Positions 1,146 to 38,408 of a stretch of DNA of 44,257 nucleotides are shown one piece after another; positions within the stretch are counted from its first letter, which is position 1; the number at the start of each line of letters is the position of its first letter. The DNA is from Magnetococcales bacterium. GTDB lineage: Bacteria; Pseudomonadota; Magnetococcia; Magnetococcales; UBA8363. The stretch spans positions 1 through 44,257 of the forward strand of contig PEAK01000033.1 in assembly GCA_002753515.1 (NCBI GenBank), given 5' to 3'. The notes below the pieces were generated by a model. That model worked only from the letters and a program-made list of their open reading frames with translations. It searched no databases and had not been told where the DNA came from. The position numbers were made by a program, and so were the translations under genes.

Positions 1146-2078
1146 ATGGAAGAACACCATTCCAACGATGAATTTGACGCCCCATGGAAAGATATCCTGG
1201 AATCGTATTTCCCTGAGTTCCTTGAATTTTTCCTCCAGGAGGCCTTTGACGGTATCGATTGGGAACGGGGATTTGAGTTTCTTGACAAGGAGTTGTCCCG
1301 CATCACCCGTGCGGCCAGCATCGGTGACCGACGCATGGACAAACTTGTCAAAGTGTGGCGTCGTGATGGTGTTGAGCTATGGGTTTTGATCCATATTGAA
1401 ATTCAGGGTGATCGAAAGACGAACTTTGCCGAAGGCATGTATGTCTACCAATACCGGGCGTATGATTTGTACCAGGTGCCTGTGGTCGGTTTGGCCATAC
1501 TGGCAGATGAAGAGGACAGTTGGCGACCGAGCGAGTTCAGTTATACCCTTTGGGGGACGCGGCAGAGTTATCAGTTTACTGCAATCAAGTTGTTGGATTA
1601 TTCGGAATACGCGTTGGAACAATCTACCAATCCTTTTGCCATTGTGACGTTGGCGCATCGGCAGGCGAAAAAAACCAAGCATCGGACCGAGGATCGCTAT
1701 CAAGAAAAACGGCGTTTGATTCGCAGGTTGTATCAACAAGGTTATAGCCGCCAGCACGTGATCGATTTGTTTCGTTTCATTGACTGGGTGCTGCACCTGC
1801 CGGAAGAACTGGATGATCGATTGAACGAAGAAATTGTCGTATTCGAGGAGAGCCAGAAAATGCCTTATATTTCAAGCATGGAACGGTTTTTGGAAAAACG
1901 CGGCGTGAAAAAAGGTGAGGCCATGATATTGACTCGCCAGTTGCAACGGCGCTTCGGTACCGTACCCGACTGGGCCAACGAAAAAATTGCCAAAGCGGAT
2001 TTGCCTTCTCTGGAGGAGTGGAGTCTCCGATTTGTTGATGCATCGTCACTGGACGATGTTTTTTCGGACAAGGGATGA
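1146..2078 (+). CDS. Rpn-type PD-(D/E)XK nuclease with DUF4351 tail, type A copy 1
   Basis: The 310-residue protein belongs to the Rpn (recombination-promoting nuclease, YhgA-like) superfamily. The N-terminal two thirds hold the nuclease core: an Asp in RRMDKLVKVW is followed by IHIEIQG, giving the D...E-x-Q pattern of the family. The last 60 residues are a DUF4351 domain (LTRQLQRRFGTVPDW, SLDDVFSDK). Relatives nick or cut DNA, promote RecA-independent recombination, or act as phage-defence toxins. This copy carries the NEEIVVFEE/FLEKR version of the linker and the LEEWSLRFVDASS version of the tail. An internal ATG at 1860, nine bases after GAGGAG, could start a 72-residue tail-only product. 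It is the only array copy with an ATG start and it differs slightly at the N-terminus. Confidence 0.85.
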   Translation: MEEHHSNDEFDAPWKDILESYFPEFLEFFLQEAFDGIDWERGFEFLDKELSRITRAASIGDRRMDKLVKVWRRDGVELWVLIHIEIQGDRKTNFAEGMYVYQYRAYDLYQVPVVGLAILADEEDSWRPSEFSYTLWGTRQSYQFTAIKLLDYSEYALEQSTNPFAIVTLAHRQAKKTKHRTEDRYQEKRRLIRRLYQQGYSRQHVIDLFRFIDWVLHLPEELDDRLNEEIVVFEESQKMPYISSMERFLEKRGVKKGEAMILTRQLQRRFGTVPDWANEKIAKADLPSLEEWSLRFVDASSLDDVFSDKG

Positions 2079-2102
2079 TGTGGCCAAGGGGAGGGGATCG
2101 GT

Positions 2103-3044
2103 TTGGAAACAAAGGATGACTACCGTTCCAACGATGAATTTGATGCCCCATGGAAAGATATCCTGGAATCGTATTTTCCTGAGTTCCTGGAATTTTTTCT
2201 CCAGGAGGCCTTTGACGGTATCGACTGGGAACGGGGATTCGAGTTTCTTGACAAGGAGTTGTCCCGCATCACCCGTGCGGCCAGCATCGGTGACCGACGC
2301 ATGGACAAACTCGTCAAAGTGTGGCGTCGTGATGGTGTTGAGCTATGGGTCTTGATCCATATTGAAATTCAGGGTGATCGCAAGACGAACTTTGCCGAAG
2401 GCATGTATGTCTACCAATACCGGGCGTATGATTTGTATCAGGTGCCGGTGGTTGGCTTGGCCATACTGGCAGACGAAGAGGAAGGTTGGCGACCGACCGA
2501 GTTCAGTTATACCCTTTGGGGAACGAAGCAGAGTTATCGGTTTACTGCGATCAAGTTGTTGGATTATTCGGAATACGCGTTGGAACAATCTACCAATCCT
2601 TTTGCCATTGTGACGTTGGCGCATCGGCAGGCGAAAAAAACCAGGCATCGGACCGGGGATCGCTATCAAGAGAAACGGCGTTTGCTTCGCAGGTTGTATC
2701 AACAGGGTTATAGCCGCCAGCAGGTGATCGATTTGTTTCGTTTCATCGACTGGGTGCTGCATCTGCCGGAAGAGCTGGATGATCGATTGCTCTCGGAGAT
2801 TGTCATTTTTGAGGAGAATCAGAAAATGCCGTACATTTCGAGTGTGGAACGGATAGGGGAAAAACGGGGTGTGAAAAAAGGTGAGGCCACCATGCTGACC
2901 CGGTTGTTACAACGGCGCTTCGGTACCGTACCCGACTGGGCCAATGAAAAAATTGCCAAAGCGGATTTGCCTTCGCTGGAAAATTGGAGCCTTCGTATTT
3001 TCGACGCCCAATCATTGGACGATGTTTTTTCGGACAAGGGGTGA
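2103..3044 (+). CDS. Rpn-type nuclease with DUF4351 tail, type A copy 2
   Basis: The 313-residue protein starts at a TTG preceded by AAGGGGAGGGG. It has the same architecture as copy 1, with D68 and E88-I-Q90 as the candidate catalytic set (counted from the TTG). It carries the other version of the C-terminal blocks: SEIVIFEEN, SSVERIGEKR, ATMLTRLLQ and LENWSLRIFDAQS. An internal ATG at 2826 follows GAGGAG by nine bases and would give a 72-residue tail-only protein. The frame is intact and all landmark residues are present. The substrate and biological role are unknown. Confidence 0.85.
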   Translation: METKDDYRSNDEFDAPWKDILESYFPEFLEFFLQEAFDGIDWERGFEFLDKELSRITRAASIGDRRMDKLVKVWRRDGVELWVLIHIEIQGDRKTNFAEGMYVYQYRAYDLYQVPVVGLAILADEEEGWRPTEFSYTLWGTKQSYRFTAIKLLDYSEYALEQSTNPFAIVTLAHRQAKKTRHRTGDRYQEKRRLLRRLYQQGYSRQQVIDLFRFIDWVLHLPEELDDRLLSEIVIFEENQKMPYISSVERIGEKRGVKKGEATMLTRLLQRRFGTVPDWANEKIAKADLPSLENWSLRIFDAQSLDDVFSDKG

Positions 3045-3068
3045 CGTGACGAAGGGGAGGGGATCGGT

Positions 3069-4010
3069 TTGGAAACAAAGGATGACTACCGTTCCAACGA
3101 TGAATTTGATGCCCCATGGAAAGATATCCTGGAAGCGTATTTCCCCGAGTTCCTGGAATTTTTCCTCCAGGAGGCCTTTGACGGTATCGATTGGGAACGG
3201 GGATTTGAGTTTCTTGACAAGGAGTTGTCCCGCATCACCCGTGCGGCCAGCATCGGTGACCGACGCATGGACAAACTCGTCAAAGTGTGGCGTCGTGATG
3301 GTGTTGAGCTATGGGTCTTGATCCATATTGAAATTCAGGGTGATCGCAAGACGAACTTTGCCGAAGGGATGTATGTCTACCAATACCGGGCGTATGATTT
3401 GTACCAGGTGCCGGTGGTCGGCTTGGCCATACTGGCAGACGAAGAGGACGGTTGGCGACCGAGCGAGTTCAGTTATACCCTTTGGGGGACGCGGCAGAGT
3501 TATCAGTTTACTGCGATCAAGTTGTTGGATTATTCGGAATACGCGTTGGAACAATCCACCAATCCTTTTGCCATTGTGACGTTGGCGCATCGGCAGGCGA
3601 AAAAAACCAAGCATCGGAGCGGGGATCGCTATCAAGAAAAACGGCGTTTGATTCGCAGGTTGTATCAACAAGGTTATAGCCGCCAGCACGTGATCGATTT
3701 GTTTCGTTTCATCGACTGGGTGCTGCATCTGCCGGAAGAGCTGGATGATCGATTGAACGAAGAAATTGTCGTTTTCGAGGAGAGTCAGAAAATGCCTTAT
3801 ATTTCAAGTATGGAACGGTTCTTGGAAAAACGCGGCGTGAAAAAAGGTGAGGCCACTATGCTGACCCGGTTGTTACAACGGCGCTTCGGTAGCGTACCCG
3901 ACTGGGCCAACGAAAAAATTGCCAAAGCGGATTTGCCTTCGCTGGAAAATTGGAGCCTTCGTATTTTCGACGCCCAATCATTGGACGATGTTTTTTCGGA
4001 CAAGGGGTGA
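3069..4010 (+). CDS. Rpn-type nuclease with DUF4351 tail, type A copy 3
   Basis: This is another intact 313-residue copy with a TTG start. It is a mosaic: the linker (NEEIVVFEES, SSMERFLEKR) matches copy 1, while the block that follows (ATMLTRLLQ, LENWSLRIFDAQS) matches copy 2. A private change gives RRFGSVPDW instead of RRFGTVPDW. The first 600 bases are almost identical to copy 4. The D...E-x-Q motif is kept. An internal ATG at 3792 follows GAGGAG by nine bases. Confidence 0.85.
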   Translation: METKDDYRSNDEFDAPWKDILEAYFPEFLEFFLQEAFDGIDWERGFEFLDKELSRITRAASIGDRRMDKLVKVWRRDGVELWVLIHIEIQGDRKTNFAEGMYVYQYRAYDLYQVPVVGLAILADEEDGWRPSEFSYTLWGTRQSYQFTAIKLLDYSEYALEQSTNPFAIVTLAHRQAKKTKHRSGDRYQEKRRLIRRLYQQGYSRQHVIDLFRFIDWVLHLPEELDDRLNEEIVVFEESQKMPYISSMERFLEKRGVKKGEATMLTRLLQRRFGSVPDWANEKIAKADLPSLENWSLRIFDAQSLDDVFSDKG

Positions 4011-4034
4011 CGTGACGAAGGGGAGGGGATCGGT

Positions 4035-4976
4035 TTGGAAACAAAGGATGACTACCGTTCCAACGATGAATTTGATGCCCCATGGAAAGATATCCTGGAA
4101 GCGTATTTCCCCGAGTTCCTGGAATTTTTCCTCCAGGAGGCCTTTGACGGTATCGATTGGGAACGGGGATTTGAGTTTCTTGACAAGGAGTTGTCCCGCA
4201 TCACCCGTGCGGCCAGCATCGGTGACCGACGCATGGACAAACTCGTCAAAGTGTGGCGTCGTGATGGTGTTGAGCTATGGGTCTTGATCCATATTGAAAT
4301 TCAGGGTGATCGCAAGACGAACTTTGCCGAAGGGATGTATGTCTACCAATACCGGGCGTATGATTTGTACCAGGTGCCGGTGGTCGGCTTGGCCATACTG
4401 GCAGACGAAGAGGACGGTTGGCGACCGAGCGAGTTCAGTTATACCCTTTGGGGGACGCGGCAGAGTTATCAGTTTACTGCGATCAAGTTGTTGGATTATT
4501 CGGAATACGCGTTGGAACAATCCACCAATCCTTTTGCCATTGTGACGTTGGCGCATCGGCAGGCGAAAAAAACCAAGCATCGGACCGGGGATCGCTATCA
4601 AGAAAAACGGCGTTTGATTCGCAGGTTGTATCAACAAGGTTATAGCCGCCAGCAGGTGATCGATTTGTTTCGTTTCATCGACGGGGTGCTGCATCTGCCG
4701 GAAGAACTGGATGATCGATTGTTCTCGGAGATTGTCATTTTTGAGGAGAACCAGAAAATGCCGTACATTTCAAGTGTGGAACGAATCGGGGAAAAACGGG
4801 GCGTGAAAAAAGGTGAAGCCACCATGCTGACCCGGATGTTGCAACGGCGCTTCGGTACCGTACCCGACTGGGCCAACGAAAAAATTGCCAAAGCGGATTT
4901 ACCTTCTCTGGAGGAGTGGAGTCTCAGATTTGTTGATGCATCGTCATTGGACGATGTTTTTTCGGACAAGGGGTGA
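4035..4976 (+). CDS. Rpn-type nuclease with DUF4351 tail, type A copy 4
   Basis: An intact 313-residue copy with a TTG start. The linker is of copy 2 type (FSEIVIFEEN, SSVERIGEKR), the middle block reads ATMLTRMLQ, and the tail is of copy 1 type (LEEWSLRFVDASS). A tryptophan found in all other copies (RFIDWVLHL) is glycine here, a single-base change that could disturb folding. The D...E-x-Q motif is unchanged. An internal ATG lies at 4758, nine bases after GAGGAG. Confidence 0.85.
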   Translation: METKDDYRSNDEFDAPWKDILEAYFPEFLEFFLQEAFDGIDWERGFEFLDKELSRITRAASIGDRRMDKLVKVWRRDGVELWVLIHIEIQGDRKTNFAEGMYVYQYRAYDLYQVPVVGLAILADEEDGWRPSEFSYTLWGTRQSYQFTAIKLLDYSEYALEQSTNPFAIVTLAHRQAKKTKHRTGDRYQEKRRLIRRLYQQGYSRQQVIDLFRFIDGVLHLPEELDDRLFSEIVIFEENQKMPYISSVERIGEKRGVKKGEATMLTRMLQRRFGTVPDWANEKIAKADLPSLEEWSLRFVDASSLDDVFSDKG

Positions 4977-4998
4977 TGTGACCGAGGGGGGGATCGGT

Positions 4999-5940
4999 TT
5001 GGAAACAAAGGATGAACACCGTTCCAACGATGAATTTGATGCCCCATGGAAAGATATCCTGGAAGCGTATTTCCCCGAGTTCCTGGAATTTTTTCTCCAG
5101 GAGGCATTTGACGGTATCGACTGGGAACGGGGATTCGAATTTCTTGACAAGGAGTTGTCCCGCATCACCCGTGAAGCCAGCATCGGCGACCGACGCATGG
5201 ACAAGCTCGTCAAAGTGTGGCGGCGTGGTGGTGTTGAGCTATGGGTTTTGATCCATATCGAAATTCAGGGTGATCGCAAGACGAACTTTGCCGAAGGGAT
5301 GTATGTCTACCAATACCGGGCGTATGATTTGTACCAGGTGCCGGTGATCGGCTTGGCCATCCTGGCAGACGAAGAGGAAGGTTGGCGACCAACGGAGTTC
5401 GGTTACAATCTTTGGGGAACGAAGCAGAGTTATCAGTTCACTGCGATCAAGTTGTTGGATTATTCGGAATACGACCTGGAACGATCCACCAATCCTTTCG
5501 CCATTGTGACGTTGGCGCATCGGCAGGCGAAGGAAACCAGGCATCGGAGCGGGGATCGCTATCAAGAAAAACGGCGTTTGCTTCGCAGGTTGTATCAACA
5601 AGGTTATAGCCGCCAGCGGGTTATCGATCTTTTTCGTTTCATCGACTGGGTGCTGCATCTGCCGGAAGAACTGGATGATCGATTGTTCTCGGAGATTGTC
5701 ATTTTTGAGGAGAACCAGAAAATGCCGTACATTTCAAGTGTGGAACGAATCGGGGAAAAACGCGGCGTGAAAAAAGGTGAGGCCATGATATTGACTCGCC
5801 AGTTACAACGGCGCTTCGGTACCGTACCCGACTGGGCCAACGAAAAAATTGCCAAAGCGGATTTGCCTTCACTGGAGGAGTGGAGTCTCAGATTTGTTGA
5901 TGCATCGTCATTGGACGATGTTTTTTCGGATAAAACGTGA
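4999..5940 (+). CDS. Rpn-type nuclease with DUF4351 tail, type A copy 5
   Basis: The last array copy is 313 residues long. The reading frame is open back to 4885, inside copy 4, because the spacer is two bases shorter. The TTG at 4999 aligns with the starts of the other copies and is taken as the start. This is the most diverged unit at the N-terminus (EASIGDRRM, RRGGVELW, GYNLWGTKQ). The linker is of copy 2 type, and the middle and tail blocks are of copy 1 type (AMILTRQLQ, LEEWSLRFVDASS). An internal ATG lies at 5722, nine bases after GAGGAG. Confidence 0.85.
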   Translation: METKDEHRSNDEFDAPWKDILEAYFPEFLEFFLQEAFDGIDWERGFEFLDKELSRITREASIGDRRMDKLVKVWRRGGVELWVLIHIEIQGDRKTNFAEGMYVYQYRAYDLYQVPVIGLAILADEEEGWRPTEFGYNLWGTKQSYQFTAIKLLDYSEYDLERSTNPFAIVTLAHRQAKETRHRSGDRYQEKRRLLRRLYQQGYSRQRVIDLFRFIDWVLHLPEELDDRLFSEIVIFEENQKMPYISSVERIGEKRGVKKGEAMILTRQLQRRFGTVPDWANEKIAKADLPSLEEWSLRFVDASSLDDVFSDKT

Positions 5941-10007: not shown

Positions 10008-10316
10008 GGGCCTCTTTAAAAAAGTACGGATGAGCCAAATTGATCCCGGGCCGACGAAAGACAACACCACTCCGAACGATCGAAACAATGACGGGGTGGG
10101 ATTGTAACGCAGGTGTAAAAAAAATGGTAGCCCCAAAACGGGATAACGGCTTCCCTGCCAGTCTCGAACACGCCCCTTTCCATGGGCGCACGCCACCTGA
10201 TTTCGAGAGCCGTCAAGCCAACGAATTGTTGTAGACTTCAAAGGGTGAAATCCGGGACAATCCTTAGGTTAGGAGGGGAGTGTTCCGCATGGCCGGAAGG
10301 GAGGGCAACAATCGCA
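10008..10316. other. Gene-free region between cheR and the type B array
   Basis: This stretch separates the divergent cheR and type B nuclease genes and must hold promoters for both. I cannot point to convincing -10/-35 pairs. The last 20 bases contain the purine-rich GGAAGGGAGGGC that recurs before every type B copy as their ribosome binding region. Confidence 0.4.
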
Positions 10317-11001
10317 TTGAAAGGGAGTGACGAAAAAACCCATTGGCACCGTTTGGTCGGTGAAATGCTGAAAGTGTTGCTGGAACCCGTCGGCATCGAA
10401 GTGCGCATGGAAGTCCCTGTCGTTCCCGCACCACCCGTAGCGGATCTCATTTTGATTCAGCGCAGGATAGTTGGAAACAATGGCTGGACGGATGAACAAC
10501 GTTACCGCTTGGCCGATGGGCTGCGCGATCTGGATGCGGACCATATTCTGCTCGAATTGAAAATAACCGAAAGTTTGAACGAAAAAACGCTCTCATGGCT
10601 TTCAATGTACGATGCCTTGTATTTGGATGCCATGAAATTGCAGCGGCATTTTTATCGGTTTATGGAGGTTGAGAATGAAGAACACCTTGGATAGCCCAGA
10701 GATGGAGGGGATCACGCCCGAGTATGTCATTCAGCTCGGGAAGAAATGGTTCGCGTCGATGGTGGATACAACACCGGAAGAAGAACTGTTTTCCCTGCCA
10801 AGGCTTGGGCATCGCCTGGTTCAAGAACATCGGGAAGGTGAAATCGCCGTCCTAACCCGCCAGTTGCAACGCCGCTTCGGCATCCTACCTGAGTGGGTGC
10901 GTGAAAAGATTGCCAAGGCTGATCAACCCTCCCTGGAAGAGTGGAGCCTGAGATTTGTGGATGCCCAAACGCTGGACGATATTTTCTCGGACAAGGCGTG
11001 A
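10317..11001 (+). pseudogene. Type B Rpn/DUF4351 gene copy 1, broken by a 269-bp internal deletion
   Basis: The first 110 codons match copies 2 and 3, with the nuclease residues D43 and E80-L-K82 (in HILLELKITES). The sequence then jumps from the equivalent of 11425 to that of 11695. The loss is 269 bp, not a multiple of three, so the N-terminal frame runs into HFYRFMEVENEEHLG and stops at 10694. The rest of the gene continues in another frame. Unlike a random wreck, the downstream part keeps an intact start, ribosome binding site and DUF4351 frame (10675-11001), listed separately. The N-terminal fragment lacks the second half of the nuclease fold and is probably inactive. Confidence 0.85.
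10675..11001 (+). CDS. Stand-alone DUF4351 C-terminal protein (type B copy 1 remnant or RpnS-like)
   Basis: This 108-residue frame begins at an ATG six bases after a perfect GGAGG (10664-10668). It overlaps the end of the truncated nuclease fragment by 20 bases. It contains ITPEYVIQLGKKWFASM, a short charged linker and the DUF4351 tail (LTRQLQRRFGILPEW, QTLDDIFSDK). It corresponds to the internal frame of the full-length copies. The deletion upstream removed nuclease sequence only, so this product could still be made on its own. By analogy with the intragenic small Rpn proteins of E. coli it might be an antitoxin-like partner. That is inference. Confidence 0.5.
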   Translation: MKNTLDSPEMEGITPEYVIQLGKKWFASMVDTTPEEELFSLPRLGHRLVQEHREGEIAVLTRQLQRRFGILPEWVREKIAKADQPSLEEWSLRFVDAQTLDDIFSDKA

Positions 11002-11093
11002 CACGCTTGTCGCCTGTTCATGGTACAATAATGGGAAGCATTGACCCCTCACGCACCACCAATCCCATATCTTAAAGGAGGGCAACAATCGCA

Positions 11094-12059
11094 TTGAAAG
11101 GGAGTGACGAAAAAACCCATTGGCACCGTTTGGTCGGGGAGATGCTGAAAGTGTTGCTGGAACCCGTCGGCATCGAAGTGCGCATGGAAGTCCCTGTCGT
11201 TCCCGCACCACCCGTAGCGGATCTCATTTTGATTCAGCGCAGGATAGTTGGAAACAATGGCTGGACGGATGAACAACGTTACCGCTTGGCCGATGGGCTG
11301 CGCGATCTGGATGCGGACCACATTCTGCTCGAATTGAAAATAACCGAAAGTTTAAACGAAAAAACGCTCACATGGCTTTCAATGTACGATGCCTTGTATC
11401 TGGACGCCATGAAATTGCAGCGACACCAACTGCGGAGCGTTATCATCAGTTCTAAAACATCACAGAAAGAGTTCCTGGCACGATACGCATTCAAACCTGT
11501 AGGGCCGTTGGGGGTCTATGAGAGCATGCCCATTTGGGGTGGCGTTGTTCGTTTGATCTTTCTGAACGAATTGACGGACGAGGTTCACAATGCCCCATTA
11601 AAATGCTTTGCCAGTCGTCAAAGCGAGCAAAGAAAAGCGTTCGAGACGATCGAACACACCGGGTTGTTCAATCTTTCCGCAGCATTTGGCCAAATTTTTA
11701 TCGGTTTATGGAGGTTGAGAATGAAGAACACCTTGGATAGTCCAGAGATGGAGGGGATCACGCCCGAGTATGTTATTCAGCTCGGGAAAAAATGGTTCGC
11801 GTCAATGGTGGATACAACACCGGAAGAAGAACTGTTTTCCCTGCCAAGGCTTGGGCATCGCCTGGAACAAATGCTACAGGAAGGCGAACAGATAGGTGAA
11901 GCCAAAATGCTGACCCGCCTGTTGCAACGCCGCTTCGGCATCCTACCTGAGTGGGTGCGTGAAAAGATTGCCAAGGCTGATCAACCCTCCCTGGAAGAGT
12001 GGAGCCTGCGAATATTGGATTGCCAAACGCTGGACGATATTTTCTCGGACAAGGTGTGA
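11094..12059 (+). CDS. PD-(D/E)XK nuclease-like protein with DUF4351 tail, type B copy 2
   Basis: The 321-residue protein begins with a TTG after AAAGGAGGG. The N-terminal half holds a restriction-endonuclease-like core with D43 (VADLILIQ) and E80-L-K82 (HILLELKITES), a D...E-x-K set different from the E-x-Q of the other types. A hydrophobic middle (VVRLIFLNEL) leads to the region ITPEYVIQLGKKW and the DUF4351 tail (LTRLLQRRFGILPEW, SLRILDCQTLDDIF). The nuclease module is unrelated in sequence to type A, but the tail clearly is related. A second in-frame start at 11721 sits behind GGAGG. Role unknown; defence or recombination are the family precedents. Confidence 0.75.
   Translation: MKGSDEKTHWHRLVGEMLKVLLEPVGIEVRMEVPVVPAPPVADLILIQRRIVGNNGWTDEQRYRLADGLRDLDADHILLELKITESLNEKTLTWLSMYDALYLDAMKLQRHQLRSVIISSKTSQKEFLARYAFKPVGPLGVYESMPIWGGVVRLIFLNELTDEVHNAPLKCFASRQSEQRKAFETIEHTGLFNLSAAFGQIFIGLWRLRMKNTLDSPEMEGITPEYVIQLGKKWFASMVDTTPEEELFSLPRLGHRLEQMLQEGEQIGEAKMLTRLLQRRFGILPEWVREKIAKADQPSLEEWSLRILDCQTLDDIFSDKV
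11721..12059 (+). CDS. Possible internal gene: C-terminal DUF4351 protein of type B copy 2
   Basis: The ATG at 11721 is in frame with the large gene. It is preceded by GGAGG at 11710-11714 with a six-base spacer, a better ribosome binding site than that of the full-length TTG start. The product would be 112 residues, covering ITPEYVIQLGKKW and the DUF4351 domain. E. coli Rpn genes make a comparable small C-terminal protein that neutralises the full-length nuclease. No expression evidence exists here. Confidence 0.4.
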   Translation: MKNTLDSPEMEGITPEYVIQLGKKWFASMVDTTPEEELFSLPRLGHRLEQMLQEGEQIGEAKMLTRLLQRRFGILPEWVREKIAKADQPSLEEWSLRILDCQTLDDIFSDKV

Positions 12060-12150
12060 CACGCTTATCGCCTGTTCATGGTACAATAATGGGAAGCGCT
12101 GACCCCTCACGCACCACCAATCCCATATCTTAAGGAGGGCAACAATCGCA

Positions 12151-13116
12151 TTGAAAGGGAGTGACGAAAAAACCCATTGGCACCGTTTGGTCGGGGAGAT
12201 GCTGAAAGTGTTGCTGGAACCCGTCGGCATCGAAGTGCGCATGGAAGTCCCTGTCGTTCCCGCACCACCCGTAGCGGATCTCATTTTGATTCAGCGCAGG
12301 ATAGTTGGAAACAATGGCTGGACGGATGAACAACGTTACCGCTTGGCCGATGGGCTGCGCGATCTGGATGCGGACCACATTCTGCTCGAATTGAAAATAA
12401 CCGAAAGTTTAAACGAAAAAACGCTCACATGGCTTTCAATGTACGATGCCTTGTATCTGGACGCCATGAAATTGCAGCGACACCAACTGCGGAGCGTTAT
12501 CATCAGTTCTAAAACATCACAGAAAGAGTTCCTGGCACGATACGCATTCAAACCTGTAGGGCCGTTGGGGGTCTATGAGAGCATGCCCATTTGGGGTGGC
12601 GTTGTTCGTTTGATCTTTCTGAACGAATTGACGGACGAGGTTCACAATGCCCCATTAAAATGCTTTGCCAGTCGTCAAAGCGAGCAAAAAAAAGCGTTCG
12701 AGACGATCGAACACACCGGGTTGTTCAATCTTTCCGCAGCATTTGGCCAAATTTTTGTCGGTTTATGGAGGTTGAAAATGAAAAGCTCCTTGAATAGTCC
12801 AGAAATGGAAGGGATCACGCCCGAGTATGTCATTCAGCTCGGGAAGAAATGGTTCGCGTCGATGGTGGATACAACACCGGAAGAAGAACTGTTTTCCCTG
12901 CCAAGGCTTGGGCATCGCCTGGAACAAAAATTACAGGAAGGTGAACAGATAGGTGAAGCCAAAATGCTGACCCGCCAATTGCAACGCCGCTTCGGCATCC
13001 TACCTGAGTGGGTGCGTGAAAAGATTGCCAAGGCTGATCAACCCTCCCTGGAAGAGTGGAGCCTGCGATTTGTGGATGCCCAAACGCTGGACGATATTTT
13101 CTCGGACAAGGTGTGA
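12151..13116 (+). CDS. PD-(D/E)XK nuclease-like protein with DUF4351 tail, type B copy 3
   Basis: A 321-residue near-duplicate of copy 2 with the same TTG start and GGAGGG signal. The nuclease half is essentially unchanged. Differences concentrate after residue 190: QKKAFE, FVGLWRLKMKSSLN, LEQKLQEGE. The tail reads LTRQLQ and LRFVDAQTLDD, the versions seen in copy 1, where copy 2 has LTRLLQ and LRILDCQTLDD. The candidate catalytic D43 and E80-L-K82 are kept. The gene ends 15 bases before the convergent ETF-QO gene. Confidence 0.75.
   Translation: MKGSDEKTHWHRLVGEMLKVLLEPVGIEVRMEVPVVPAPPVADLILIQRRIVGNNGWTDEQRYRLADGLRDLDADHILLELKITESLNEKTLTWLSMYDALYLDAMKLQRHQLRSVIISSKTSQKEFLARYAFKPVGPLGVYESMPIWGGVVRLIFLNELTDEVHNAPLKCFASRQSEQKKAFETIEHTGLFNLSAAFGQIFVGLWRLKMKSSLNSPEMEGITPEYVIQLGKKWFASMVDTTPEEELFSLPRLGHRLEQKLQEGEQIGEAKMLTRQLQRRFGILPEWVREKIAKADQPSLEEWSLRFVDAQTLDDIFSDKV
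12778..13116 (+). CDS. Possible internal gene: C-terminal DUF4351 protein of type B copy 3
   Basis: The in-frame ATG at 12778 again follows GGAGG by six bases. The flanking codons differ from copy 2 (MKSSLN against MKNTLD), yet the GGAGG and ATG are preserved. The 112-residue product would contain only the linker and DUF4351 tail. The basis is conservation of the signal plus analogy to known Rpn small proteins. Confidence 0.4.
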   Translation: MKSSLNSPEMEGITPEYVIQLGKKWFASMVDTTPEEELFSLPRLGHRLEQKLQEGEQIGEAKMLTRQLQRRFGILPEWVREKIAKADQPSLEEWSLRFVDAQTLDDIFSDKV

Positions 13117-13131
13117 CACGCTTGTCGCCTG

Positions 13132-14748
13132 TTACATGGTGCGATACTGGGGACCACTCCCCCCTTCGGGAGGACTCCAAAGAATGGCGTCATCGGGATC
13201 CTTGATCGAGCAGGTTTGACAATGCAGACAGCGGTGGGGACTGAGGCGCATCGTTGGTGCGTGGGAAGCACCGGTCAGGGAAAAAACGCCTGCGGGACAG
13301 TAGTATCGTTCGGGGGCGTCGAACTGCCGGATATGGTGTGCCAGGGCATCCGGGGTGCGGGTCACCTGGATATGACCCGGTTGACCCTCACGATGCCGCA
13401 CCCCGGCCAGAAAAAGAAACCGATCACGATCCAGAACCGTGTCGCCCTGACAAGGGGGCTGAGGCGGCGTTGGCTTGGCGTGGCGCAGTTTTTCCCGGTC
13501 TGCAAGCCGGTGACGCCAGGTCCACAAGGCGCGTCCCCGAACAATTTTCTGGTCGAAAAAACCATGCGCCATCCCCAGCCACAACCCGCGACCCAGACCG
13601 GGTTGTACATTTCGGGCATGCCTCAGGTCGGGCAAGACCAACGATTCCAATTCACGACCGTAAAGCAAGCCCGATTGCCGCCAATCCGTTGGGAACGCAT
13701 GGATCGCCCTGGCGGCAGCGATGCCTGAGAGCAAGGCTTGATGGATCCCTTTCATGCGGGCGCCATCCAACAATCCCGCCGCATCCCCCACCAGCAAGCC
13801 CCCGGGAAAACTGGTGTTGGGCAATGCTTGCAGCCCCCCGGTCACCAAAACCCTGGCCCCGGCTTCCAGGGGGCGTCCGCCAGCGAGGATGGCGCGCAAC
13901 CAGGGATGGGTTTTCCAGCATTGCAGCAGTCGGAAGGGATCGGTTTGCGGGTTGCGGTAGGACAAATGCACCACCAATCCCAGATCCAGGCGTCCGGGTC
14001 GCACGTGATAAAGAAATCCCCCCCCATGACAATCCGGGGCCAGGGGCCAGCCCAGCGCATGCAGGATGGCTCCGGGTTTGGATTGATGGGGTTCGATTTC
14101 CCAAATTTCTTTGAGACCCAGGGCATACTGTTGTGGTGCCCGGTGACGATCCAGTTGGAAATGCCGGATCAACCGTGTAGCCAGATGGCCGCGTGCCCCT
14201 TCGGCAATCACGGTGATGGGTGCCAGGAGTCGCACCCCGGGTTGAAAATGCCTGCCGGGCACACCCTGGGCGTTCCGTCCGACATCCGCCGTGACAACCC
14301 CTTGAAGGTTCCCATGGTGATCCCAAACGGGTTCCACCGCTGGAAAACCATGAAAGATCTGCACCCCGAGGTCTTCGGCACGACGGCTGAGTCCCTGGCA
14401 CAAGGGACCAAGGCGGACGATGAGACACCCTTGATTGCGCATCACGTTGCAATGGGGCAGGGCGTGGGCCTTGGTGCGACTCAAAAAGAACAAGTGTTCC
14501 TGAGTGACCGGGGTGGTATCCGTTGGGATGGTATGGCGCCAGTCGGGCAACAAAAGATCCAGACCTTTCGGGTCCATGACAGCCCCGGACAGGATGTGGG
14601 CACCGGGATGCGCCCCTTTGTCCAGGAGGCAAATCGTGCGCTCTTGACCTTGACGGCGGAAAAGTTCTGCCAGGTGAATGGCCGTTGCCAGCCCCGCCGG
14701 ACCGGCACCGACAACAATGATATCGAAGGTGAGTTCTTCCTGATTCAT
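13132..14748 (-). CDS. Electron transfer flavoprotein-ubiquinone oxidoreductase
   Basis: The 538-residue membrane-associated flavoprotein passes electrons from ETF (fed by acyl-CoA and other dehydrogenases) to ubiquinone. It shows the FAD-binding IIVVGAGPAGLATAIHLAE at the N-terminus, GAHILSGAVMDP, a second FAD motif GGLLVGDAAGLLDGARMKG, and a C-terminal [4Fe-4S] segment with YYCPAGVF and HRCLHCQTCSIKDP, which together supply the four cluster cysteines. The ATG at 14748 (MNQEELTFDII) is chosen by homology because the longer open frame adds an unrelated 30 residues. The gene lies back to back with the ligase gene at 14826, sharing a 77-bp promoter region. No ETF subunit genes are present in the window. 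Confidence 0.92.
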   Translation of the reverse strand: MNQEELTFDIIVVGAGPAGLATAIHLAELFRRQGQERTICLLDKGAHPGAHILSGAVMDPKGLDLLLPDWRHTIPTDTTPVTQEHLFFLSRTKAHALPHCNVMRNQGCLIVRLGPLCQGLSRRAEDLGVQIFHGFPAVEPVWDHHGNLQGVVTADVGRNAQGVPGRHFQPGVRLLAPITVIAEGARGHLATRLIRHFQLDRHRAPQQYALGLKEIWEIEPHQSKPGAILHALGWPLAPDCHGGGFLYHVRPGRLDLGLVVHLSYRNPQTDPFRLLQCWKTHPWLRAILAGGRPLEAGARVLVTGGLQALPNTSFPGGLLVGDAAGLLDGARMKGIHQALLSGIAAARAIHAFPTDWRQSGLLYGRELESLVLPDLRHARNVQPGLGRGLWLGMAHGFFDQKIVRGRALWTWRHRLADREKLRHAKPTPPQPPCQGDTVLDRDRFLFLAGVRHREGQPGHIQVTRTPDALAHHIRQFDAPERYYCPAGVFSLTGASHAPTMRLSPHRCLHCQTCSIKDPDDAILWSPPEGGSGPQYRTM

Positions 14749-37562: not shown

Positions 37563-38408
37563 TCATGTCTTGTCCGTGAAAACGTCGTCCAAAGACTGGG
37601 CGTCGAAGATGCGAAGGCTCCAGTCCTCTAGTGAGGACAGATCCGCTTTGGCTATTTTTTCGTTGGCCCAATCGGGTACGGTGCCGAAGCGGCGTTGTAG
37701 CAGACGGGTTAGGATCGCGGCTTCACCTTCCTGCCGGCTTTCCATCTGCGCCTTCACGATTATTGGCCGGAATACATCGTTTTCCATTAAGTTGAAGGTC
37801 AGTGACATTTCTTCAGCCTCCTCTTTAACGACCGTTTCCAGTCTACGTAATCTGGATATGATAACCAATTTCGTCAGGGCATCTGCCCTGGCTTTTATCG
37901 GCAGTTCGCTTATTCGATACAAGATTTCCTGGATCACCTCTTTCTGGTTGTCGATCCGACAAAGGATGGCCAGGATGTTTTCTTCCAAGGACGGGCTGTC
38001 CAGCAGCTCTCTGCAATCAATGCTGCGGATGTCAATGACCTCATAATGGAAGGATAAATTCGGTTCTTCGATGCTTGATCCGCTTTGCCACTCTTGCAGT
38101 CCGACATACAGCACCTTCTGAATCAGGATCCTGTTCGGATAACGCTGACGTATGACTGAGTAATACATCAGCATGCGCCATTCCATGACCTCAGGTCTGC
38201 CTTGCAACTCCAGATGAGTGATCGAATCATCCTGCATCAAGAACAGCAGATCGGGAAGGCGCTTTTGGGTGGAAGCGAACTCCACCGACAAAAGCTCTAC
38301 AGCTTCCCGTCCGATCAGGATCTGCAACAAACGTTGCGGCGGCTTTTCAAACAAATCCTTGAGGGTGGTATCGTACTGGGACCGGTTCTTTTCCTTCTGA
38401 TCTTCCAT
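37563..38408 (-). CDS. Rpn/PD-(D/E)XK-like protein with DUF4351 tail, type D
   Basis: The 281-residue protein begins MEDQKEKNRSQYDTTLKDLF. The nuclease-like core has D53 (KRLPDLLFLMQD) and E67-L-Q69 (THLELQG), followed by a Trp/Arg-rich helix. This module is common in cyanobacteria and proteobacteria as a DUF4351-linked protein and differs from types A-C. The tail (LTRLLQRRFGTVPDWANEKI, RIFDAQSLDDVFTDK) is almost the same as in the type A and C genes. The ATG at 38408 is preferred (ACAGGAA upstream); the frame stays open to 38642 without homology. An internal ATG at 37745 lies five bases after AAGG. Confidence 0.78.
   Translation of the reverse strand: MEDQKEKNRSQYDTTLKDLFEKPPQRLLQILIGREAVELLSVEFASTQKRLPDLLFLMQDDSITHLELQGRPEVMEWRMLMYYSVIRQRYPNRILIQKVLYVGLQEWQSGSSIEEPNLSFHYEVIDIRSIDCRELLDSPSLEENILAILCRIDNQKEVIQEILYRISELPIKARADALTKLVIISRLRRLETVVKEEAEEMSLTFNLMENDVFRPIIVKAQMESRQEGEAAILTRLLQRRFGTVPDWANEKIAKADLSSLEDWSLRIFDAQSLDDVFTDKT

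Follow-up and report, generated by a model that had tools for sequence, protein, structure and literature searches.

A conserved internal start in a family of putative nuclease genes of Magnetococcales suggests an Rpn-like gene-within-gene arrangement

The rpn (recombination-promoting nuclease) genes of Escherichia coli encode a toxic nuclease together with a C-terminal inhibitor that is made from an internal start (Zhong et al., PMC10327210). Internal translation was shown in that work for the E. coli genes and for one gene of Clostridioides difficile, the tails were found to differ in 4-residue repeats, the number of which determines specificity, and stand-alone genes for the small protein RpnS were described, annotated as DUF4351 in some species (PMC10327210). 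In E. coli rpnA the internal signal reads AAGGAG-N6-ATG and lies at codon 244. Here we analyse a comparable arrangement in a 44,257-nucleotide stretch of DNA from a Magnetococcales bacterium (contig PEAK01000033.1 of assembly GCA_002753515.1, hereafter the window), in which three tandem genes, referred to as type B, join a putative nuclease to a DUF4351 tail. An earlier inspection of the letters alone (the sequence-only reading) had noticed a Shine-Dalgarno (SD) sequence and an in-frame ATG just ahead of each tail, and had proposed the logic of Rpn with a different nuclease module. The evidence gathered below leads us to give this reading, in which type B would be a toxin-antitoxin of the gene-within-gene kind, like Rpn but built on a new nuclease module, a probability of roughly three in four.

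The host genome measures 4.3 Mb in 134 contigs, of which C88 contains the window, and it carries nine full-length type B copies and further fragments. The array in the window consists of a broken copy 1 (10317-11001) followed by copies 2 and 3, which are 97% identical frames of 321 residues with a TTG start. The closest named match to the type B gene is a 95%-identical copy in a related Magnetococcales genome, and searches with the nuclease part (tblastn) found no relatives of the family on plasmids, nor were there any among the viral contigs searched. The features of the array are as follows.

10317-10679, + strand: nuclease N-terminal remnant of copy 1, TTG start, family codons 1-121
10653-10654, + strand: approximate point at which 269 bp are deleted from copy 1; homology to copy 2 picks up again at ATTTTTATCGG
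10664-10668, + strand: internal SD sequence GGAGG of copy 1
10675-11001, + strand: tail frame of copy 1 from the internal ATG, 108 residues (linker, 4-residue repeats and DUF4351)
11094-12059, + strand: copy 2, full-length nuclease-tail gene, 321 residues, RpnL-like
11710-11714, + strand: internal SD sequence GGAGG of copy 2
11721-12059, + strand: internal tail frame of copy 2 from ATG, 112 residues, RpnS-like
12151-13116, + strand: copy 3, full-length nuclease-tail gene, 321 residues, with the PD-(D/E)XK core residues D43 and E80-x-K82
12767-12771, + strand: internal SD sequence GGAGG of copy 3 (GGAG at equal spacing in 65 of 69 family members)
12778-13116, + strand: internal tail frame of copy 3, 112 residues, its ATG being family codon 210 (ATG in 69 of 69)
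12925-12963, + strand: hypervariable 4-residue repeats of copy 3 in the long first tail helix (..QEGEQIGEAK..); copy 1 has one unit fewer
12934-13098, + strand: DUF4351 (PF14261) match of copy 3

The GGAGG, six nucleotides and in-frame ATG that had been noticed in all three copies are indeed there, with the ATGs at 10675, 11721 and 12778. These copies are near-identical tandem duplicates and therefore do not, by themselves, rise above chance. With synonymous recoding and other positions within the same genes as background, the recoded genes contain at least one internal in-frame GGAG-N5-8-ATG with a mean chance of about 0.21 per gene (0.20 for copy 3 and 0.28 for copy 2). A chance origin is thus not rejectable for a single gene (0.2-0.28), and it is rejected at the level of the family.

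For the latter, homologues were gathered from about 20 related genomes, and 69 distinct full-length frames, down to 40% identity, were codon-aligned. The internal start, at codon 210, is invariably ATG across the 69 frames, with no GTG or TTG. In 65 of them GGAG stands exactly 7 nucleotides upstream, whereas 2000 synonymous resamplings averaged 8.9 such frames and reached at most 19. Met210 is the sole conserved methionine of the family with GGAG upstream. At the protein level Gly204 and Met210 do not vary. The codons that jointly spell GGAG encode varying residues, at 206 W (45 members) or R (21) and at 207 R in 56 members, S in 9 and K in 4. Moreover, Arg207 is encoded by AGG or AGA (AGR) in 56 of 56 cases and never by CGN, when most other conserved arginine columns hold 0-12% AGR. 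When changes were mapped onto a tree of the nuclease part alone, the GGAG window came out with 5 at the nucleotide level and 12 at the residue level; of the 251 windows whose residue changes are at least as numerous, the runner-up shows 12 nucleotide changes. Since the GGAG window has accumulated so few nucleotide changes despite its residue changes, the nucleotide signal itself, and not the residues alone, is under selection. The sequence-only reading had named homologues coding the same residues without GGAGG-ATG as evidence that would count against it; what the alignment contains is homologues that differ at residues 206 and 207 and keep GGAG. At the boundary outside GGAG-ATG third positions are not conserved, and in 57 of the 69 frames the 40 nucleotides around the internal start have less structure than the gene on average.

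Lineages without the old GGAG carry another GGAGG-ATG nearby. In the four members that lack GGAG at codon 210 (three from Candidatus Magnetaquicoccus inordinatus and one from bin YD0425bin7) the sequence GGAGGGTAYRATG is found 4-5 codons downstream, the relocated signal being GGAGG-N5-ATG; counting relocated ones, the internal start is present in 66 of 66 intact copies. Outside Magnetococcales it is kept by seven of eight homologues, the majority of which have unrelated tails. The original site is retained in Achromatium palustre and in an uncultured proteobacterium, ahead of tails made of unrelated xRLAGLxxKE repeats without DUF4351; Desulfamplus, with a tail of the same repeats, has TGGAAA at the old site and a new AAGGAGG-N5-ATG slightly downstream; and an acidobacterium homologue likewise has GGAGG-ATG slightly downstream of the old site. 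In five nucleases from outside Magnetococcales (L187, L190, L192, L197 and L199) the xRLAGLxxKE repeats replace DUF4351 wholesale, downstream of the conserved internal start. Judging from this pattern of conservation, internal initiation at codon 210 is very probable, and separate translation of the tail is strongly supported by evolution.

The attribution of the tail to DUF4351 held up, with matches to PF14261 of 28.5, 35.1 and 30.7 bits in copies 1, 2 and 3, respectively, against a cut-off of 25, and a DUF4351 match in 31 of 32 diverse family members. The tail runs from a linker with an [IL]TPEYV motif through a long helix of 4-residue repeats to DUF4351, and its predicted structure has a long helix at 42-72, after which come helices 77-85 and 88-98. 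The number of 4-residue units varies widely among homologues, for example GERDGERKGERKGERKG. Such domains abound in the host genome, whose 66 DUF4351 matches are the most among 46 related genomes. In other genomes, full-length frames and DUF4351 frames of about 100-135 residues lie side by side (e.g. G016:C240 and G004:C124).

The nuclease part is of a different kind. The nuclease of copies 2 and 3 has no Pfam or NCBIfam match up to E = 1, and over the whole proteins the only matches up to that value are DUF4351 and a sub-cut-off DUF4828. The Rpn models PF04754, PF12784 and TIGR01784 match none of the 32 diverse members, hhalign gives the type B nuclease a probability of 0.5% against RpnA, which the profile searches recovered as a positive control, and no PADLOC model matches the type B nuclease. 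Among 38 sequences, D43 and K82 are invariant and E80 is kept in at least 90%. The suggestion of a nuclease module distinct from that of Rpn and bearing E-x-K is thus borne out by both the model searches and the motif. An AlphaFold2 model from the 38 sequences (mean predicted local distance difference test score, pLDDT, 83.7) shows an alpha-beta-beta-beta-alpha-beta core whose strands 44-49 and 76-82 bear or adjoin D43 and E80-x-K82. The leading VIA-align matches of residues 1-172 are mostly PD-(D/E)XK enzymes (McrC, NucS, Card1, Can2 and restriction enzymes), with Z up to 7.6, as for McrC (6hz4, over 121 residues), and 7.3 for NucS (2vld). Foldseek with the whole type B model returned no match at E <= 0.001, and a sequence search of solved structures gave no hit for the whole protein and chance hits only for the tail. 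Altogether, the type B nuclease is probably a PD-(D/E)XK enzyme, an assignment with moderate Z scores, for which much of the support comes from the motif. Translation of the nuclease apparently starts at TTG in most members, several of which have an in-frame stop just upstream. An alternative AUC or AUU start preceded by an SD (AAGGAGG-N6-ATC in copies 2 and 3) was dropped, as several homologues have an in-frame stop between that SD and the TTG.

Copies that have lost the nuclease offer a separate line of evidence. In copy 1, as had been reported, a 269-bp deletion destroyed the nuclease frame, which is open from 10317 for its first 121 codons, and spared GGAGG-ATG, leaving a complete frame of 108 residues (10675-10998). 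The coding sequence of copy 2 is 281 bp longer than that of copy 1, a figure that comprises the 269 bp and a separate 12-bp difference overlooked by the sequence-only reading, by which the copy 1 tail has one 4-residue repeat fewer than those of copies 2 and 3. A similar outcome is seen in the sister genome nWRX3bin12, a metagenome-assembled genome in which the flanks show about 97% identity: its first array gene has likewise lost the nuclease frame and kept the tail intact, through a different deletion near the 5' end of the gene. Across 47 decayed copies, none of them cut by a contig end, the tail is open and the N-terminal half lost in 28 and the reverse holds in 0, while 4 retain both and 15 neither, this in a search whose query (209 residues before the internal start and 18 from the start on) was biased toward N-terminal remnants; 28 of the 47 have both an intact SD-ATG and an intact tail of 100 residues or more. 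Tail-only frames homologous from M210 occur 55 nucleotides (L097) and 39 nucleotides (L101) downstream of full-length genes, and upstream of full-length genes in L075 and L114. In one further host-genome copy (C118, L137) nuclease and internal start are both gone and the tail is fused in frame to N-terminal residues, so that it can still be made. In Achromatium palustre (L207:2480-2958) a frame-broken nuclease is likewise followed by an intact GGAG-ATG tail frame.

The proposal that copy 1 is an orphan antitoxin is plausible in the light of how common such tail-only survivors are; what sits less well with it is the repeat number, which differs from that of copies 2 and 3. Because a single-repeat change abolished inhibition in E. 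coli RpnC (PMC10327210), the copy 1 tail may, by analogy with the E. coli repeat rule, be non-cognate to its two neighbours. A serious contender, a little short of even odds, is that copy 1 is a plain pseudogene with a functionless tail, which would concern this copy alone and would be compatible with an Rpn-like role of copies 2 and 3. Copy 1 is, after all, one among many decaying copies, its tail lacks a repeat unit, and apart from the extra repeat it differs from that of copy 2 by 12 non-synonymous and 6 synonymous codons, with no clear sign of purifying selection. Against this stand the intact tail, SD and ATG, the sister-species orthologue that arrived at the same nuclease-broken and tail-intact state through a different deletion, and the 28:0 bias of the whole family toward tail retention.

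According to the Rpn-like reading, the full-length gene would give two proteins from one frame. The first would be a PD-(D/E)XK nuclease of about 321 residues, initiated in most members at a weak TTG; the second would be its own C-terminal tail of about 110 residues, initiated at the internal ATG with its strong SD, and this difference between the two starts should favour tail production over that of the nuclease. The tail would pair with the equivalent segment of the full-length protein and restrain the nuclease, as RpnS does for RpnL in E. coli, and the nuclease-free copies (copy 1 and many others) could act as free-standing antitoxins or decoys. On this reading the full-length protein would be toxic, and the pair might serve in phage defence. 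Several observations weigh against it. The 28:0 comparison comes from a set assembled by hand from search hits in fragmented metagenome assemblies, with array copies that are not independent, and homologues within one order share ancestry and local duplication, which also deprives the conservation counts of independence. The Beggiatoa homologue has just a weak purine stretch (GGAAGAAG) ahead of the corresponding ATG. Foldseek and VIA with the tail model alone yielded no useful match, and the structure of the RpnA small protein, RpnAS (7TH0), a three-helix bundle whose first helix is long, is not among the matches. Finally, transcription also starts inside the rpn genes of E. coli (PMC10327210), and a search of 10200-13200 found no sigma-70-like internal promoter, a result that carries little meaning in a different phylum.

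An unlikely alternative, though the best placed of those that concern the whole family, accepts the internal start as real and regards the tail as an accessory subunit needed by the nuclease, not as its inhibitor, in the way that Cas11d is made from cas10d. Such a tail would show an equally conserved internal start, and the Cas10d/Cas11d precedent exists (cited in PMC10327210), but tails outlive the N-terminal half of the nuclease in 28 copies and the reverse never occurs, and DUF4351 with 4-residue repeats fits the pattern of RpnS, an inhibitor in E. coli. A still slimmer chance attaches to the idea that GGAG-ATG is kept for some other nucleic-acid reason, be it a recombination or gene-conversion boundary for exchange between nucleases and tails or the relic of an old operon fusion. 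The site falls exactly at the module boundary, tails are common to at least five nuclease classes in the genome and the arrays expand and decay fast, all of which would suit it; nevertheless, the signal is constrained in the manner of a ribosome binding site (fixed 7-nucleotide spacing, always ATG, in frame), SD and ATG relocate together where the old site is lost, and the rest of the boundary lacks third-position conservation. Lastly, a constraint on the residues L-W-R-x-x-M alone, with the SD spelled incidentally, could appeal to the invariant Gly204 and Met210 but is scarcely credible and, unless the alignment is wrong, already refuted, given that GGAG stays while residues 206 (W/R) and 207 (R/S/K) vary, that Arg207 is never CGN, that GGAG is seen in 65 of 69 members against 9 of 69 expected by synonymous recoding, and that its window shows the 5 nucleotide versus 12 residue changes described above.

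Type B is one of several gene classes with this kind of tail. In the host genome at least five nuclease classes carry DUF4351-type tails, several of them without a curated nuclease-family match, and DUF4351 also accompanies PDDEXK_2 or Transposase_31 there, two models by which such proteins count as Rpn-type. Upstream in the window lie five type A genes in tandem (1146-5940), which join DUF4351 to a different nuclease and have GAGGAG followed 9 nucleotides on by ATG (ATGs at 1860, 2826, 3792, 4758 and 5722); GAGGAG is always read there as GAG-GAG, that is, Glu-Glu, and these genes may also have an internal start. A relative (L015) gives a sub-cut-off match to the Rpn model TIGR01784 and nothing stronger, and in a further type A gene (L030:1014-1690) much of the nuclease is deleted in frame with GAGGAG-ATG and tail kept, which parallels copy 1. 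Type C DUF4351 genes (window position 37829, - strand; L022, L025, L027 and L028; ..EAEEMSLTFNLMEN..) have GGAG(G)-ATG just upstream of the tail, and the type C protein of L022 has no curated nuclease family match. A Transposase_31 (Rpn-type) and DUF4351 protein (L023:586-1683) shows AGGAGG-N8-ATG at the boundary, and by the criterion used for it no internal start was found in two PDDEXK_2 and DUF4351 proteins (L016 and L019).

To our knowledge, intragenic antitoxins have been described only for Rpn. What is new here is a ribosome binding site inside the frame of a putative toxin that is shown to be selected at the nucleotide level, in a nuclease family without sequence match to Rpn, a start signal that moves, reforms and outlasts both nuclease loss and tail replacement. 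Tentatively, and with less conviction than for type B itself, the DUF4351-type tail with its own ribosome binding site could be a general plug-in module for inhibition and dimerisation, the nuclease-free tails forming a pool of antitoxins that would neutralise active copies according to repeat number. On this wider view the signal, which persists with an unrelated repeat tail and relocates when the old site is lost, would belong to the architecture and not to one protein family. The findings on type B make gene-within-gene toxin-antitoxin systems look like a recurrent architecture, for which a conserved SD-ATG at the boundary between nuclease and tail provides a search rule, and the matching of repeat number between copies is a directly testable specificity code.

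Among the described systems, type B resembles DUF4351 (PF14261) proteins in its tail and departs from them in that the attached nuclease falls in no Pfam or NCBIfam family. With the PD-(D/E)XK superfamily it shares D and E-x-K and a predicted restriction-endonuclease-like fold, although none of the structural matches is close (Z <8, 10-17% identity). Cas10d/Cas11d likewise draws two proteins from one frame, with the small C-terminal product made from an internal start (cited in PMC10327210), but there the small product is a required subunit and not an inhibitor, and no homology is claimed. The nearest relative in design is Rpn (RpnL/RpnS; COG5464, PF04754 / TIGR01784), which also has a nuclease with a C-terminal tail, an internal SD-ATG at their boundary, hypervariable 4-residue repeats in the first tail helix, tails as separate genes, tandem arrays and loss of the N-terminal part (PMC10327210). 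Type B differs from it in a nuclease without sequence match to PF04754, PF12784, TIGR01784 or RpnA, and in an internal product in which an additional [IL]TPEYV linker helix precedes the repeats and whose length is about 110 residues, against 49 for the RpnA small protein. The gene-within-gene logic of E. coli Rpn that had been proposed for this locus is therefore supported by the conserved SD-ATG, DUF4351 and the 4-residue repeats; every feature of Rpn that can be checked here at the sequence level was found, the nuclease family excepted, and by these features type B is Rpn-like in its predicted working and not a sequence member of Rpn.

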